Below, piece after piece: positions 44,384-50,000 of a DNA stretch of 59,489 nucleotides. The notes under the pieces are model-generated. The model was given only the letters and a program-made list of their open reading frames with translations. It was not told where the DNA came from and made no database searches. This DNA is from Armatimonadota bacterium (GTDB taxonomy: Bacteria; Armatimonadota; Hebobacteria; GCA-020354555; CP070648), in NCBI GenBank assembly GCA_035527535.1, contig DATLAK010000092.1, positions 1-59,489 on the forward strand, read 5' to 3'. Position 1 is the first letter of the stretch. The number at the start of each line of letters is the position of its first letter. The position numbers were made by a program, and so were the translations under genes.

Positions 44384-45601
44384 ATGGCAATCAACGAGGG
44401 CATGATAGAGACGCTGCGCGCCGGGTTGGCAGGCGATGTGCGCGAGCGCATTGATCAAGCCGCTGGCGCCGTCGCGCGCGCGAAGGAGCGCGGCGGCAAG
44501 GTCGTCGTCGTCACCGGCAGCGGCCCCAACCTGCACGAGGGCGTAACGTCCCTGCTCGCCGAGCTCATCCACCGCGGCATCGTTGACGGCGTCACCACCT
44601 CCTCCGCCGTCATCGCCCACGAGATGGCGGGCGCGCTGGAGCGCGTGCACCGGGTGGCGGGCGACGCGCTTGGCTTCGACCCGGCGGCGCTGCCCATGGA
44701 CGGCAGGTTCGAGATCTCCGTGCTGCCCCCGGGCTGGCTCGACATCATCGCCGACGAAATGCCGGTTGATCGTCCCCTTATCGAGCGCGCGCTCGATGCG
44801 CAGGGCTCCGACATCATCAAGGCGGCGGGCAATCTCTCCTATCCCCTGGGCCTGCGCACCGAGCGCCTGGCGCGCGAGGCCGAGGAGCTGGCGCGAGCCG
44901 CCGGCGTACCCCTCGAGGAAATCGTGGGTGCCGGGGCTGACCGCCGCACCATGATCGGCGCGGGGCACCAACGCGGCGCCCCGGTGCTGGTCAGCATCCC
45001 CCAGCTCGTCGGCGGCGGCGCCGTCGGCCTCGCCATCGGCGACAGCATCTCCATCACCGACCGCGCCGCGCGCATCGCCGCCTTGCTCGCCGACGCCGAC
45101 GTCATCATCGAGTCCGCCGTCGCCCTCACCCAGGAGATCCACGACGGCCCCTTCGAGACCTTCACCGGCCACGGCATGTGGGCCGCCTGGGAGGGTCTCC
45201 CCACCTACTCCCTGGCCGCCAAGGAGCTCATCCGCATCGATCTCGACCCCAACCTCGATCGCGCGTGGCACATGGAGCGCGACTCCGGCGCGGTCGCCGA
45301 CGCCATCGCCGCGGGCAAGCCCAAGGCCAAGGTCACCGGCATCCCCTTCCGCATGGAGATGTCGGGGTTCGCGCGCCTGCCTGGAAGCCGGCCCATCGTC
45401 GGCGATATCGGCATCGTGTGGCCCCTCTTGGCGGCTGCGGTCGCGCGGGCGCTCGGCATCAACCTCGAGTTCATCTCGTACCCGCAGCACACGCCGGCCG
45501 GACGCGACATGCGCGAATGGATCGTGGAAAACGTGCGCCCGGTCGAGCGGGCGGCGATGCTCGCGGCGGCGCGGCAGCATCAGTCTCAGCGCGGCGCGTA
45601 G
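44384..45601 (+). CDS. uncharacterised protein, deoxyhypusine-synthase-like Rossmann fold
   Basis: A 405-residue soluble protein. GKVVVVTGSGPNLHEGVTSL (about residues 38-57), LLAELIHRGIVDGVTTSSAVIAHE, GHQRGAPVLVSIPQLVGGGAVGLAIGDSISI and DADVIIESAVALTQEIHDGPFETFTGHG are highly ordered and probably catalytic. They recall the nucleotide-binding half of deoxyhypusine-synthase-like bacterial proteins, but I cannot assign a family with certainty. No eIF5A-like substrate exists in bacteria, so a polyamine or amino-acid role would be inference. The 3' end overlaps the convergent deacetylase gene by 16 bp. Confidence 0.6.
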   Translation: MAINEGMIETLRAGLAGDVRERIDQAAGAVARAKERGGKVVVVTGSGPNLHEGVTSLLAELIHRGIVDGVTTSSAVIAHEMAGALERVHRVAGDALGFDPAALPMDGRFEISVLPPGWLDIIADEMPVDRPLIERALDAQGSDIIKAAGNLSYPLGLRTERLAREAEELARAAGVPLEEIVGAGADRRTMIGAGHQRGAPVLVSIPQLVGGGAVGLAIGDSISITDRAARIAALLADADVIIESAVALTQEIHDGPFETFTGHGMWAAWEGLPTYSLAAKELIRIDLDPNLDRAWHMERDSGAVADAIAAGKPKAKVTGIPFRMEMSGFARLPGSRPIVGDIGIVWPLLAAAVARALGINLEFISYPQHTPAGRDMREWIVENVRPVERAAMLAAARQHQSQRGA

Positions 45602-46623
45602 CCGCGTGGCGAGGTCCGCGGGGCTACCGGCGCCGGGTCGGCCGACTCGCCGGGCGTGCCGATGAGCTGCGACACGCTCACGATTTCGATCCCCGCCTCC
45701 CGCAGCAACGGCAGCAAGCGCGCCAACATCTGCGCGGTCTGCTCCCGGTAGTGGCAAATGCCAATGGCGCAGCCGCGGCGCTGAGCCAGGCGCCCCAGCT
45801 CCTCCACCCGCTCCTGCGCGAGCTCCAGGAACTCCTCGGCGGTGCCGGGTTCGGGCCGCAGGTTGGTGTCCAGAAAGACGCTGCGCGCGGCGTGCAGCAC
45901 GCCCAGTTCGGCAGCCACCTGCCCGGCGACGCTGCTCCCGGTGGTGCGGCTGTCAACGAACAACAGGCCCTGCCGCCGCAGCACCGACAGTACCGCCCGC
46001 ATTACTCGCGGATCGGCGGTCGCGCGCGACCCCATGTGGTTATTGACCCCGACCGCCGCCGGCACCGCCGCCAGGTCGTCCTCCACCAAGGCGGCGATCT
46101 GGTCGTCGGTCATCTCCACCATGATGCACCCCGGGCCGGGGTCGAGGCGCGAGTTGAGGGGCTCCATCGGCAGGTGCAGCATGACCTCGAACCCGGCCGC
46201 GGAGCACGCGCGGGCCAGTTCCCGCGAGCGCTCCACCCCCGGCAGCACCGAGAAAGTCAACGCATAGGGGAGCGCGGTGAATTCGCGGATAACGGCGGCG
46301 TTGTAGCCGACGTCGTCAACGATGATCGCCACCCGGCCGCCATCGTGGGGCAGCAGCGGGCGCTCCCGGGGCTTGGGTGACGGCCCCTCGGTGATCGGCC
46401 GGGCGGGGCTGGCGACGGCGGGCGGGCGCGCGTGGGCGCGCGCGCGGCGACCGCCGGTCGCGGGCGCCCCGACGCCGCCGGGTCGGGGCGCCGACGGCGG
46501 CGGGGCGGGAGGGCGTGATGCCCGCCCCAGCCACCACAGAACCGCGATCACCAGCAGAAATAGCGCGGCCAGGATCCACGGGAAGACGGGTCCGGCGGCG
46601 CGGCGCGGCGATGGGGTCGTCAT
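45586..46623 (-). CDS. divergent polysaccharide deacetylase (YibQ/DUF610 family)
   Basis: A 345-residue protein anchored by one N-terminal helix (FPWILAALFLLVIAVLWWLG). A Pro/Ala/Arg-rich linker to about residue 95 is followed by a NodB-like barrel: RVAIIVDDVGYNAAVIREF, FEVMLHLPMEP, GVNNHMGSRATADPRVM and LFVDSRTTGSSVAGQVA. The family is typically encoded next to a CtpA-like protease and envelope amidase activators, as here. It is probably periplasmic and acts on cell-wall polymers. The ATG at 46623 follows 95 bp containing a palindromic repeat. It overlaps the neighbouring convergent gene. Confidence 0.88.
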   Translation of the reverse strand: MTTPSPRRAAGPVFPWILAALFLLVIAVLWWLGRASRPPAPPPSAPRPGGVGAPATGGRRARAHARPPAVASPARPITEGPSPKPRERPLLPHDGGRVAIIVDDVGYNAAVIREFTALPYALTFSVLPGVERSRELARACSAAGFEVMLHLPMEPLNSRLDPGPGCIMVEMTDDQIAALVEDDLAAVPAAVGVNNHMGSRATADPRVMRAVLSVLRRQGLLFVDSRTTGSSVAGQVAAELGVLHAARSVFLDTNLRPEPGTAEEFLELAQERVEELGRLAQRRGCAIGICHYREQTAQMLARLLPLLREAGIEIVSVSQLIGTPGESADPAPVAPRTSPRGYAPR

Positions 46624-46637
46624 CACGCGTTCACATC

Positions 46638-46710
46638 CCGGGCTGGGAGGGGACAGTTCCTTCCCACCCCGGGCCTGGGCGGTGCGCTGGGCGGCGGGGA
46701 ACTGTCCCCT
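46638..46710. repeat. GGGGACAGTTC inverted-repeat element (copy 2)
   Basis: AGGGGACAGTTCCTTCCC and GGGGAACTGTCCCCT bound a unit that is nearly identical to 31159-31223 in the opposite orientation. It sits between the protease and deacetylase genes and could form a strong hairpin in their transcript. Confidence 0.75.
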
Positions 46711-46718
46711 CGCGCCCG

Positions 46719-48068
46719 CTAATTGCGGGCGGCAATCTGCTGCCGCAGCAGTTGCAGGGCCTTCTGGTACTGCAAGTCGTCGGGGCCGTTGCGGGCGGCC
46801 TCCGGCGCGGTCTTGGCCGCCACGTCCGGCGTCACCCCCTTGTGGTCTATGTCGCGGCGCGACAGCGTGTACCACTTGGAGGTCGTCAGCGCCATCGCCG
46901 AGCCGTCGCTCAGGGGCAGAATGGTCTGCACCGATCCTTTGCCGTAGGTGGGGGTGCCGACGAGCCGGCCGACCTTCGCATCCTGGATCGCGCCGGCGAG
47001 GATCTCCGAGGCGCTGGCGCTGCCCCGGTTGATGAGCGCCACCAGCGGGAGATCGAACTTGCTGCCCTTGCCGTTCTCGTCGTAGAACGGGCGCATGGGT
47101 TGGCCGCGCTCCTGCACATAGACGACCGGCTCTGCGGCGACGAACTGGTGCACTACCTCGAGGCAGCGATTGAGCAGACCGCCGGGGTTGTCGCGAATGT
47201 CGAGCACCAGCCCGCGCATGTGCTGCGCTCGCAGCTTGCGCAGCCCCGCGGCTACCGCGCGCCCGGTGTCGTCGTGGAAGTAGTTCACCCGCATCAGCCC
47301 GATCCCGTCATCCAGCAGCTTGGTTTCGACCGTCGCCAGCTCGATGGGGCCGCGCACGATCTCTTTGGGCACGGGGGCGGTGGCCCCCTCGCGACCGAGC
47401 AGGAGTTTAACCGTGGTCCCCCGCTCGCCGCGAATTCGCTTGGCCGCTTCGCTGACGGTCATGCCGTCGGTGGGCGCGCCGTCGATCTTCAGCACCAGGT
47501 CCCCAGCCTCCACCCCCGCCTTGGCGGCGGGACTCCCGGGCAACGGCGCAACGATCGTCAGCCGGAAGGAGCGGAGGGGAATCTCCGATCCGCACGCGGG
47601 ACAGCGCAGCCCCGGCGTGACCTTGGCCGTCTCGTCGTCGCCCTTGACTTCGGTCAGGCCGATGGTGGCGCCGATACCCTCGAAGCGTCCCTGGTTCTCC
47701 TCCTGGAACGACTGGTACTCCTGGGGGTCCATGAAGCGCGTGTAGGGATCGTCGAGCGCCGCCAGCATGCCGCGTATCGCGCCGTAGGTCAGCTGGCGGC
47801 GGTCCCCAACCGGCGATACGAAGAACCGATCAATATTCTCCAGCACTTGGCCGAACGTCTCCAGCGGTTGCAGGTCCACCTCGTCGCGCCCCTGGGCGCC
47901 GGAGGCGCCGGCTGCGCTCGCGACGCGGGTCGCTCTCAGCGCGCGGACCGCCTCCAGCCCGCCGGTGGTGCTGTCAGCCAGGATCTGAAACTGACGGCCG
48001 GCCATGAAGGACGCGACCATGACCACCAGCAGGGCGATGGTCAGGGCGATGCGATGTCTGCGTTGCAT
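46719..48068 (-). CDS. ctpA: S41 family C-terminal processing peptidase
   Basis: A 449-residue periplasmic serine protease. An N-terminal anchor (IALTIALLVVMVASFMAG), the N-terminal helical part (LTYGAIRGMLAALDDPYTRFMDPQEY), a PDZ domain (about residues 120-215) and the catalytic core with VLDIRDNPGG, the nucleophile in NRGSASASEILAGAIQD and the lysine in TYGKGSVQTI are all present. A CPACG knuckle inside the PDZ region (GLRCPACGSEIPL) is not usual for CtpA. It degrades or trims envelope proteins. The pairing with a divergent polysaccharide deacetylase follows a common gene order. ATG at 48068 or 48086. Confidence 0.92.
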   Translation of the reverse strand: MQRRHRIALTIALLVVMVASFMAGRQFQILADSTTGGLEAVRALRATRVASAAGASGAQGRDEVDLQPLETFGQVLENIDRFFVSPVGDRRQLTYGAIRGMLAALDDPYTRFMDPQEYQSFQEENQGRFEGIGATIGLTEVKGDDETAKVTPGLRCPACGSEIPLRSFRLTIVAPLPGSPAAKAGVEAGDLVLKIDGAPTDGMTVSEAAKRIRGERGTTVKLLLGREGATAPVPKEIVRGPIELATVETKLLDDGIGLMRVNYFHDDTGRAVAAGLRKLRAQHMRGLVLDIRDNPGGLLNRCLEVVHQFVAAEPVVYVQERGQPMRPFYDENGKGSKFDLPLVALINRGSASASEILAGAIQDAKVGRLVGTPTYGKGSVQTILPLSDGSAMALTTSKWYTLSRRDIDHKGVTPDVAAKTAPEAARNGPDDLQYQKALQLLRQQIAARN

Positions 48069-48219
48069 GAGCCTGCTGCCTCTCAATTCTATATGTGTGC
48101 GTCACGCGCGCCAGTGCGCGCGGCGGGACATCCCTGCCGGGATTATTCCATGGGGCGGGGGGCAGGCAAACCACGCCGCTGCCGGCCGCCACTCCCGGCC
48201 GGCGTCGGCGGCGACCCGG

Positions 48220-49020
48220 TCAGAGCCCGTAGATGTGGATACGGAAAACGCGCATGCGGTAGAGGACGAAGTCAACGGAGGGGTAGCTCAAGATGCAGCT
48301 ATTGGTGAAACCGACCATTCCGGCCGGGCCCGCATTCGCCGTGGCCGTCAGCGCGTCGCCCGGGGCCGCCCCCGCCGGCACGAAACCGAAGGCGGGGCCG
48401 ACGGGCGGCAGGGCGCCAGGTCCGCCATCATCCTCCCCTCCTCGCCCGCCGCCGCGACCGCCGAAGCTGATAGCCCCTCCCGGGGCGGCGGGCGCACCGG
48501 CTGCAGGAGTGGCCGGGGTGATCCGGCGTCCCGTTTCGCTGATGATCTCCGTGCGGTTGGGCCAGCCGTAGGTCCGCAGCACGTCGGCGAAGGTATCGCC
48601 GATCCGAATCCCCTTCTCGGTCTCGGCAACCTTGGAGGAAGCGAAAGTGCGCCACTGGCTGGCGACGACGTTGGTCACGTGGGCGTCTATCCCGCTGCCG
48701 GTCATGAGCACGCCGATGACCGCCGGGTCGCGGTTGTATATCCACTGAATCTGGTCCCCGCCGACTGCAGCCATGCGCACGGCGGTCGCCCATACCGGCA
48801 TCTCGAACTCCTGCGTCCCGATGAAGCTGAACGCGTTGCCGGGCGCGAACATCGCGTCCGGCGTGCCGAACGACGGCGACGACAGGAGATCGTCCGGCGT
48901 GTCGCCCAGTGACACGCCCGCCAGCTTCATCTCCAGGCACAGCGCGGGGGACGACAGCGCCGCGACCAGCGCCACCACCACCGCGACAACCACCACCTGC
49001 TGCATCCTTGCCCTGCCCAT
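48220..49020 (-). CDS. secreted RG-rich protein, tandem paralogue 2
   Basis: A 266-residue protein with a signal peptide ending near ALC|LE. Mature part: MKLAGVSLGDTPDDLLSSPSFGTPD (residues about 30-54) and later GIRIGDTFADVLRTYGWPN (about 138-156). Both share the pattern G-(hydrophobic)-x-(hydrophobic)-GD-x5-L-x2-(P/Y)-G-x-P, seen in BamE/SmpA-like and related beta-domain repeats. A Gly/Arg-rich linker (ISFGGRGGGRGGEDDGGPG) separates this from a final strand region. No known family is assigned. The ATG at 49020 has GGGGAGA upstream. It follows its paralogue by 28 bp. Confidence 0.7.
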   Translation of the reverse strand: MGRARMQQVVVVAVVVALVAALSSPALCLEMKLAGVSLGDTPDDLLSSPSFGTPDAMFAPGNAFSFIGTQEFEMPVWATAVRMAAVGGDQIQWIYNRDPAVIGVLMTGSGIDAHVTNVVASQWRTFASSKVAETEKGIRIGDTFADVLRTYGWPNRTEIISETGRRITPATPAAGAPAAPGGAISFGGRGGGRGGEDDGGPGALPPVGPAFGFVPAGAAPGDALTATANAGPAGMVGFTNSCILSYPSVDFVLYRMRVFRIHIYGL

Positions 49021-49048
49021 TGCTTCTCTCCCCACCTTCGGCTGCTAG

Positions 49049-49834
49049 CTATTCTGAACCTCGCCCACCGCCGCCGCCACGGCCACCGCCATAGGTGGGA
49101 GCGACACCCGCCGCCGGGCCTGCGGCGGGCCGCGCTGCTGCCGCCGCCGTTCCTTTGGCGAGGGCGATGGTAGTCACCCGCAGACTCGTCAGCGTCAGCG
49201 TCAGGCCGGCGTTTGCGTAACGCAAGACCAGGTTGCCCCCCGCGCCCTGGGTCGAGTCGGGAAAGCCGTATTTCTCAAGCACCGCAATGTATTGGTCGCC
49301 GAGTCCTATGCCCTGCTCCGTCCGCGCCCCCCGGTACCAGCTGCCGGAGACGGTGATCGTCTTGACGCGGCCGGCGGCGTTGAGCCCGACGACGACCTGC
49401 ACTGGGCCGGGCATGTTGTAGAGCCAATAGGTTGCGGTGCTGTCGTCCTCGACCACCACCGGCACGGTGGGGATCGCCGCGGGGGGAGCGAAGCTGCTGG
49501 CCGCCGGCAGCGGTGCGGGAGCGGCCTCCTCTACCTCACTACCGCGGCCGCCACCTCTACTCGGGACGAAACCTCTCGCCGGCGCAAGCGGTGCGAACCC
49601 CACCCCTGCGGGCGCTCCGACCGCCGCTAGTCGCGTCGGAGCCGTGAGCCCGTAGGTTACCACGGCCCCCGCCGGACCGAAAAAGTCCGGCGGGCCGTAG
49701 AGCGGTTCATCGAGGAGATCCATGGCCGGCTGGTCGAGCCGGATGCCGCCCAACTGTGCCTCGATCGCGTAGGCCCGCGGCGCCAACGCAAGCGCCGCAG
49801 CCGCGATCGCGAGTACCGTGAGGCGCCTGACCAT
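49049..49834 (-). CDS. secreted RG-rich protein, tandem paralogue 1
   Basis: A 261-residue protein with a signal peptide (LTVLAIAAAALALAPRAYA). The segment AQLGGIRLDQPAMDLLDEPLYGPPDFF aligns with KLAGVSLGDTPDDLLSSPSFGTPDAMF of the neighbouring gene. GIGLGDQYIAVLEKYGFPDST aligns with its second repeat. Two RG-rich segments are present (SRGGGRGSEVEE in the middle, YGGGRGGGGGRGSE at the C-terminus). Probably exported to the envelope; function unknown. The ATG at 49834 has AGGAGG six bases upstream. A prenyl synthase gene ends 166 bp further along the plus coordinates. Confidence 0.7.
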   Translation of the reverse strand: MVRRLTVLAIAAAALALAPRAYAIEAQLGGIRLDQPAMDLLDEPLYGPPDFFGPAGAVVTYGLTAPTRLAAVGAPAGVGFAPLAPARGFVPSRGGGRGSEVEEAAPAPLPAASSFAPPAAIPTVPVVVEDDSTATYWLYNMPGPVQVVVGLNAAGRVKTITVSGSWYRGARTEQGIGLGDQYIAVLEKYGFPDSTQGAGGNLVLRYANAGLTLTLTSLRVTTIALAKGTAAAAARPAAGPAAGVAPTYGGGRGGGGGRGSE

Positions 49835-50000
49835 ACCAAGCCTCCTGTGCGCCATTTCTACACCCCGGGGATAGCGTGCCTCAATCTATCACACGCCCCC
49901 GGCACTGTCAACCCTTCTGACGCTCGCGCGGGCCCCGGCGTTCCCCCGCTGACGAACGCGCGCCAGGCGGCGCTCCATGGCGGGGTCACGGCTCGGCAGG

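Follow-up and report, generated by a model that had tools for sequence, protein, structure and literature searches.

The window considered here is a stretch of 59,489 nucleotides from an Armatimonadota bacterium (GenBank assembly GCA_035527535.1, contig DATLAK010000092.1), in which two adjacent, co-oriented genes on the - strand, ORF2 and ORF1, encode exported proteins. It is well supported that they represent two old paralogues belonging to an unnamed family that is near-universal in Armatimonadota. Equally well supported is the prediction that each protein is built of two BamE-like alpha/beta units in one DUF4309/CAP_assoc_N-like body, into which a long disordered segment, glycine-rich and fast-changing, is predicted to be inserted. 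In most of the sampled families outside the class of the window, Hebobacteria, a class proposed within Armatimonadota (PMC10290634), dnaG and rpoD come directly downstream of the family gene; in Hebobacteria this gene is duplicated and lies directly upstream of ctpA. Both of these arrangements are well supported. The reading that we favour, if tentatively, is that this near-universal exported two-unit family acts as a growth-linked, soluble binding adaptor of the cell envelope, specialised in Hebobacteria as a pair beside CtpA. The two genes (open reading frames, ORFs) are placed as follows.

49049 to 49834, - strand: ORF2, exported tandem-unit protein; the ORF opens at ATG 49855 (268 aa), likely start ATG 49834
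48220 to 49020, - strand: ORF1, exported tandem-unit paralogue; the ORF opens at GTG 49035 (271 aa), likely start ATG 49020

The starts are favoured by motifs recognized by eye: GGGGAG lies close upstream of ATG 49020, at ribosome-site spacing, and AGGAGG close upstream of ATG 49834, which is also the end coordinate used in an earlier note on this DNA.

The family is found throughout the phylum. A first search of the genome contigs with ORF2 alone as query found no relative; tblastn with ORF1 matched 31 of 61 genomes (its own and 60 of the same phylum), and phmmer on the fetched loci revealed tandem pairs in several. A profile of the C-terminal core matched 265 of 291 Armatimonadota genomes, its own included, with matches in 189 of the 194 genomes that reach 90% completeness or more with no more than 5% contamination, and in 146 of 156 genera. 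When 391 genomes of at least 95% completeness were searched, 162 matched: 154 of the 156 from the same phylum (own counted) and 8 of the 235 from other phyla, a split read from a listing in which the same-phylum non-matching genomes come first and 209 non-matching genomes are unlisted. Spread of the family beyond the phylum was considered and rejected, the eight outside matches looking like proteins or domains of the same fold that lack the long linker; it follows that the fold is widespread, and the linker-bearing family essentially one of Armatimonadota. One outside match (G319) has internal stops and was not recovered in the ORF search. The deepest, L095 and L096 (genomes G350 and G460), come from one family outside the phylum and are a compact, linker-free two-unit protein, with profile E values of 1.3e-9 and 3.1e-8. 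No paper on the family gene was found in a literature search that covered only part of the literature.

Neighbours were compared in 41 loci, the window and 40 loci fetched from the phylum, chosen non-randomly for long contigs and family spread before the neighbours were known. BLAST served to group the neighbouring dnaG, rpoD, ctpA and deacetylase genes, and Pfam was run on two dnaG, one sigma factor, one ctpA and two deacetylase genes. In 31 of the 41 loci, spanning 21 of the 26 GTDB families sampled, dnaG is the next clustered downstream gene on the same strand. The distance from the family stop to the estimated start of dnaG is at most 272 bp in 30 of these 31 loci and 1028 bp in the other, the median being 35 bp. 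An rpoD-type sigma factor follows dnaG on the same strand, within 1500 bp, in 29 of the 31; the exceptions are L056 and L068, the latter of which stops at the contig end. In the genome of the window dnaG is on a separate contig (C139), and ctpA, not dnaG, lies downstream of the pair. A hidden family member before that dnaG was looked for, and none was found among ORFs of at least 80 aa within an E value of 10. In two genomes of family f11 (L086, L088) dnaG is directly preceded by a different gene, by eye metallocarboxypeptidase-like, and the family pair lies elsewhere.

In the Hebobacteria arrangement, for which the downstream genes and a promoter-like site of the window are listed below, the tandem pair is followed by ctpA in all eight loci examined (window, L041, L042, L070, L071, L092, L093 and L094), which represent three families, the remaining genomes of the class being fragmentary or outside these eight loci.

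49883 to 49911, - strand: promoter-like site upstream of ORF2, TTGACA-17-TAGATT with TG before the second hexamer; consensus match only
46719 to 48086, - strand: ctpA, S41 carboxyl-terminal processing protease with PDZ, the next gene downstream of ORF1; Pfam PF03572, 7.8e-50
45586 to 46875, - strand: divergent polysaccharide deacetylase (yibQ type), after ctpA; Pfam PF04748, 2.2e-70; same order in L041

The earlier note had pointed to co-occurring CtpA and deacetylase neighbours; the CtpA part stands in all eight loci, and the yibQ-type deacetylase is confined to two, the window and L041, which alone among the eight share the order ctpA, yibQ-type deacetylase, kdsB. At 9 of the 41 loci (L049, L052, L053, L055, L059, L065, L068, L078 and L079) the family gene is preceded on its own strand, at a distance of 26-249 bp, by an unrelated TPR/polysaccharide deacetylase cluster, whose L055 member combines TPR with PF01522. 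Promoter-like sites of the type upstream of ORF2 number 3 in 4.8 kb, as against a shuffle mean of 0.2. In a tree of 57 core sequences, built on few columns and with a bootstrap that had not settled, the seven ORF1 rows form one group (97/86), so that the split between ORF1 and ORF2 seems to be older than that between families f1 and f3; the other tandem pairs (f5, f11, f12 and f26) look from the same tree like separate duplications.

The proteins themselves are divided as follows, by sequence comparison and by the models and profiles described below.

49766 to 49834, - strand: ORF2 Sec-type signal sequence; cleavage after AYA by eye, script rule satisfied, helix 2-24 in the model, no lipobox pattern
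49673 to 49762, - strand: ORF2 unit 1, first part (GIRLDQPAMDLLDEPLYGPPDF); helix 44-48, strand 58-61
49436 to 49672, - strand: ORF2 disordered linker within unit 1, residues 62-140, with SRGGGRGSE; predicted local distance difference test (pLDDT) 36-58 in 10-residue blocks over 71-140
49346 to 49432, - strand: ORF2 unit 1, three strands (TYWLYNM...VVVGLNAAGRVKTITVS); E142-148, E152-158 and E163-170 in the model
49154 to 49324, - strand: ORF2 unit 2 (RTEQGIGLGDQYIAVLEKYGFP...TTIAL); from BLASTP, model and profile comparison
49052 to 49153, - strand: ORF2 C-terminal tail of low confidence, containing GGGRGGGGGRG; the last three blocks have pLDDT 51-57
48847 to 48936, - strand: ORF1 unit 1, first part (LAGVSLGDTPDDLLSSPSFGTPDAMF); from sequence, model and profile comparison
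48655 to 48753, - strand: ORF1 unit 1, three strands (IQWIYNR...VTNVVAS); E95-102, E105-112 and E119-127 in the model
48541 to 48627, - strand: ORF1 unit 2, first part (AETEKGIRIGDTFADVLRTYGWPNRTEII); from BLASTP, model and profile comparison
48307 to 48540, - strand: ORF1 disordered linker within unit 2 (with GGRGGGRGGEDDGG); pLDDT below 50 at 171-177, 181-206 and 210-235
48223 to 48306, - strand: ORF1 unit 2, closing strands (CILSYPSVDFVLYRMRVFRIHIYGL); E246-250, E254-259 and E262-269 in the model

As the earlier note had observed, the adjacent proteins align with each other at two separate segments, which BLASTP gives as 33% over 67 aa (E 8e-7) and 34% over 59 aa (E 1e-4), these E values being those of a two-sequence comparison. 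The motif that it proposed, G-x-x-h-GD-x5-L-x2-[YF]G-x-P (h, hydrophobic), is exact in both second units (GIRIGDTFADVLRTYGWP, GIGLGDQYIAVLEKYGFP) and looser in the first units, where FG/YG is preceded by two additional residues in both proteins and GD is replaced by DQ in ORF2. The likeness of the two segments within each protein is borne out by family profiles of unit 1 and unit 2, built on a 28-row core alignment, which match each other with a probability of 96.8% (E 2.3e-10) in local comparison and 94.0% (E 2.5e-8) in global comparison; the units are therefore true repeats. Over the 28 aligned members the order is constant: a signal sequence, ELAGIRLGxxxxxVLxxYGxP, a low-complexity linker, W.Y with three strands, ARTxxGIxLGDxxxxVxxxYGxP and the closing strands. 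The ORF1-type proteins of Hebobacteria carry a long linker at the corresponding place in unit 2. A 16-row profile (A2), with the ORF2 core among its rows, matches ORF2 at 2.2e-34 and ORF1 at 1.3e-14. At one locus (L033, 283-2949) an open frame of 889 residues appears by eye to contain the tandem module twice in a single chain, with a separate Gly-rich linker in each copy.

The AlphaFold2 models of the two proteins show the same tandem alpha/beta core and disordered linker. Mean pLDDT is 76.7 for ORF1, with 136 residues at 90 or above and most of the linker below 50, and 75.7 for ORF2, with 130 residues at 90 or above. The proposed kinship to BamE/SmpA- and DUF4309-like units is supported at the level of the fold. 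VIA-align, which covers only chains ranked high by Foldseek, places YjgB/DUF4309 (4ygt) first for both models, and the same three entries (4ygt, 4ifa and 4h0a) lead for both. For ORF1 the values are Z 10.3 over 121 residues at 3.6 A (4ygt), Z 9.9 over 114 at 2.4 A (4ifa) and Z 9.4 over 125 at 3.3 A (4h0a), after which the next row drops to Z 5.3. For ORF2 they are Z 11.8 over 119 residues at 3.3 A (4ygt), Z 11.2 (4ifa) and Z 11.1 (4h0a), followed by E. coli YfeY (2qzb; Z 10.0 over 122 residues), an antifungal effector (9j9w; Z 8.7), BtiO (Z 6.4), OsmE (Z 5.9, 59 residues) and BLIP (Z 5.3). The ORF2 model also matches 7ri5_E, chain E of an outer-membrane assembly machine (BAM) complex, taken as BamE, with Z 6.6 over 61 residues at 2.5 A; BamE is not among the rows for ORF1. 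Against viral models, Foldseek with the ORF2 model returned a single row below 0.001 (E 2.7e-4, TM 0.39), to a Siphoviridae protein that carries the label restriction endonuclease; a phage lipoprotein was also matched, at E 0.013 over 48 columns.

No family had been recognized earlier, and none emerges from domain libraries: Pfam and NCBIfam give no hit to either window protein at E values up to 10. Over the 28 members Pfam returned 11 families at E up to 1, of which Collagen scored best (2 of 28 members, 4.5e-4) but was rejected as being by nature a hit on the low-complexity linker; CAP_assoc_N (0.015, in a full-length relative) and TonB_C (0.016) come next.

Both window proteins begin with a Sec-type signal sequence, in agreement with their earlier description as exported. 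The rule used, a script rule and not a trained predictor, is satisfied by 49 of 52 members; two of the other three have masked N-termini and one has its start beyond the scanned part. Among the 52 members a lipobox-like tetrapeptide was flagged in two, both times, as judged by eye, within the hydrophobic stretch; neither ORF1 nor ORF2 was flagged for a lipobox pattern. The Gly/Arg-rich stretches that had drawn attention are present, GGRGGGRGG in ORF1 and GGGRGGGGGRG in the ORF2 tail, but their interpretation as a defining polyanion-binding feature fails across the family. Across Armatimonadota the linkers are rich in GMPG, GA, GQ or RG, and their net charges run from -11 to +18; these lengths and charges are rough because several cuts, including that of ORF1, begin inside the signal or unit 1, and 5 of the 52 members could not be cut. 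A strongly RG-type linker was seen in Hebobacteria, and some relatives in this class have a strongly basic linker (net +18 in L070). The window linkers are near neutral (4 basic and 5 acidic residues, net -1, in ORF1; 4 basic and 6 acidic, net -2, in ORF2), and the ORF2 tail has 3 basic and 1 acidic (net +2). It is the folded core that is conserved, and the differences in linker composition and charge speak against conserved binding of RNA or polyanions.

What has been said of export, fold, spread and neighbours comes from tools or is predicted, and from it we infer a partner and a function. BamE and BLIP, the better-known members of the fold, act by binding other proteins, and the rigid two-unit body would likewise bind a protein partner, the linker serving as a spacer. 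For BLIP, action through protein binding is described in PMC8363833. The family protein would be expressed with growth and would work as a soluble binding adaptor in the cell envelope. In Hebobacteria the most likely partner would be CtpA or a CtpA substrate, in which case the pair would help to choose or shield cell-wall enzymes for proteolysis. A precedent is Pseudomonas, where CtpA needs a partner, LbcA, to degrade cell-wall hydrolases, according to PMC6050968. A fuller version of the same reading, in which a phylum-defining, growth-coupled, soluble double-BamE factor with a disordered tether comes from the primase/sigma operon and replaces lipoprotein partners known elsewhere, serving the outer-membrane assembly machine as an adaptor or, in Hebobacteria, serving the cell-wall protease CtpA, seems to us improbable.

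Several observations weigh against the adaptor reading. The dnaG link is missing from loci of families f1, f3, f8, f11 and f22 and from one of two f24 loci, and a gene neighbourhood can be historical. A second promoter-like site, again only a consensus match, lies upstream of ctpA at 48169-48142, so that the ORF2-ORF1 pair and ctpA need not share a transcript. In the tree, ORF2 of f1 (98/88) and ORF2 of f3 (95/99) are separate groups that are not joined in one supported clade, and several forks are weak. Foldseek on the PDB gave no significant match for the ORF1 model (best E 0.31, the rows being MYST acetyltransferases, which were judged noise), and sequence profiles against PDB chains were likewise not significant (TonB, E 0.44, with A2; 4ifa, E 0.39, with A5). 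LbcA, moreover, is a lipoprotein unrelated to the window proteins.

The alternative that survives best is that the dnaG and ctpA neighbourhoods are merely historical and that the family protein is a secreted protein of an ordinary kind, none of whose neighbours is a partner. The families without the dnaG link favour it, as does the fact that the gene upstream of dnaG differs among lineages elsewhere, as told in PMC2824700. Retention of the dnaG link in 21 of the 26 sampled families, mostly with short gaps, and of the ctpA link across three families speaks against it, and we regard it as somewhat unlikely.

A role as a BAM accessory, doing the job of BamE in stabilizing the machine in a phylum that has Omp85 (BamA-family) proteins and no detectable BamE, has in its favour the match of the ORF2 model to BAM chain E. 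Omp85 (PF01103) was found in all 25 genomes searched (its own and 24 relatives) and BamE (PF04355) in none of them, although the BamE model does match in E. coli, Caulobacter and Bacteroides among 14 controls; lineages are also known to evolve BAM subunits of their own, as stated in PMC3359395. Yet the absence of BamE is not special, because the model is silent in 11 of the 14 controls as well, some of them with Omp85. Omp85 was found in 7 of the 14 controls and BamE in 3, and together with the figures for the phylum these counts make a BAM role conceivable but unproven. Moreover, BamE is a lipoprotein and no lipobox was seen at the cleavage site in the family, DUF4309 and CAP/SCP proteins, rather than BamE, give the highest structural scores, and no neighbouring bamA was noticed. 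We consider a BAM role unlikely. One genome of family f5 (G014) has five Omp85 matches, compared with one or two in each of the remaining 24 genomes.

An inhibitor or immunity-type protein, whose two units would clamp a secreted enzyme as BLIP clamps beta-lactamase, is suggested by the rows for BLIP (Z 5.3 over 57 residues and Z 4.7 over 55), for the type VI secretion system (T6SS) immunity protein BtiO (Z 6.4) and for RhsI1 (Z 5.3). Fast-changing immunity genes, however, are unlike a family that is near-universal, has one to three matches per matching genome among the matches listed and recurs beside housekeeping genes, which makes this explanation quite improbable. An RG-rich polyanion-binding or phase-separating envelope protein, the idea of the earlier note, fits the RG stretches of both window proteins and the basic linkers of some class relatives, but was rejected as the family function because the linkers are not conserved; those of the window are near neutral, and we regard the idea as very improbable.

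Since the family is near-universal (154 of 156 near-complete genomes), has no Pfam or NCBIfam hit for its two window members and stands before dnaG in 31 of 41 loci, it makes a strong candidate for some basic function in the Armatimonadota envelope, and it would give the phylum a marker protein. To our knowledge, the roles of the BamE/CAP_assoc_N/DUF4309 fold outside BamE and BLIP are mostly unknown, and the fold is here linked to a testable housekeeping context.

Comparison with known systems places the family close to several structural relatives. DUF4309/YjgB (PF14172; 4ygt) has the same two-unit body as both window models; it differs in that it gives no Pfam hit in the window proteins (1 of 28 family members at E 0.25), and the window proteins add a long inserted linker to a body solved in a protein from Bacillus. 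CAP_assoc_N (PF14504), which we take to be the aligned N-terminal part of 4ifa and 4h0a, entries titled SCP or cysteine-rich secretory protein, shares the tandem fold (Z 9.4-11.2 over 114-125 residues) and gives a weak sequence match in one linker-free relative (E 2.5e-4; 21.3 bits against a curated cut-off of 29.3); in contrast to those proteins, neither window protein has a CAP/SCP domain by Pfam. BamE/SmpA_OmlA (PF04355) and OsmE match the ORF2 model by a single unit; BamE is a one-unit lipoprotein, whereas the window proteins have two fused units, no lipobox and no PF04355 hit. YfeY (2qzb), presumably DUF1131, aligns with the ORF2 model but is absent among the rows for ORF1, and 1 of 28 members matches DUF1131 at E 0.061, which is not significant. 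BLIP, a Streptomyces inhibitor, is likewise a secreted tandem alpha/beta repeat, of which one unit superposes (Z 4.7-5.3, 55-57 residues, 2.1-2.2 A); rows across both units are weak (Z 3.8 at 5.2 A over 94 residues, Z 3.3 at 4.1 A over 82), and no beta-lactamase gene was noticed beside the window pair. As to gene context, PMC2824700 names rpsU, or the lineage-specific yqxD and serp1129, as upstream genes of the dnaG operon, and no such exported protein. Set beside the macromolecular synthesis operon (rpsU-dnaG-rpoD), it is the family gene that occupies the position before dnaG at those 31 loci, with rpoD following in 29.

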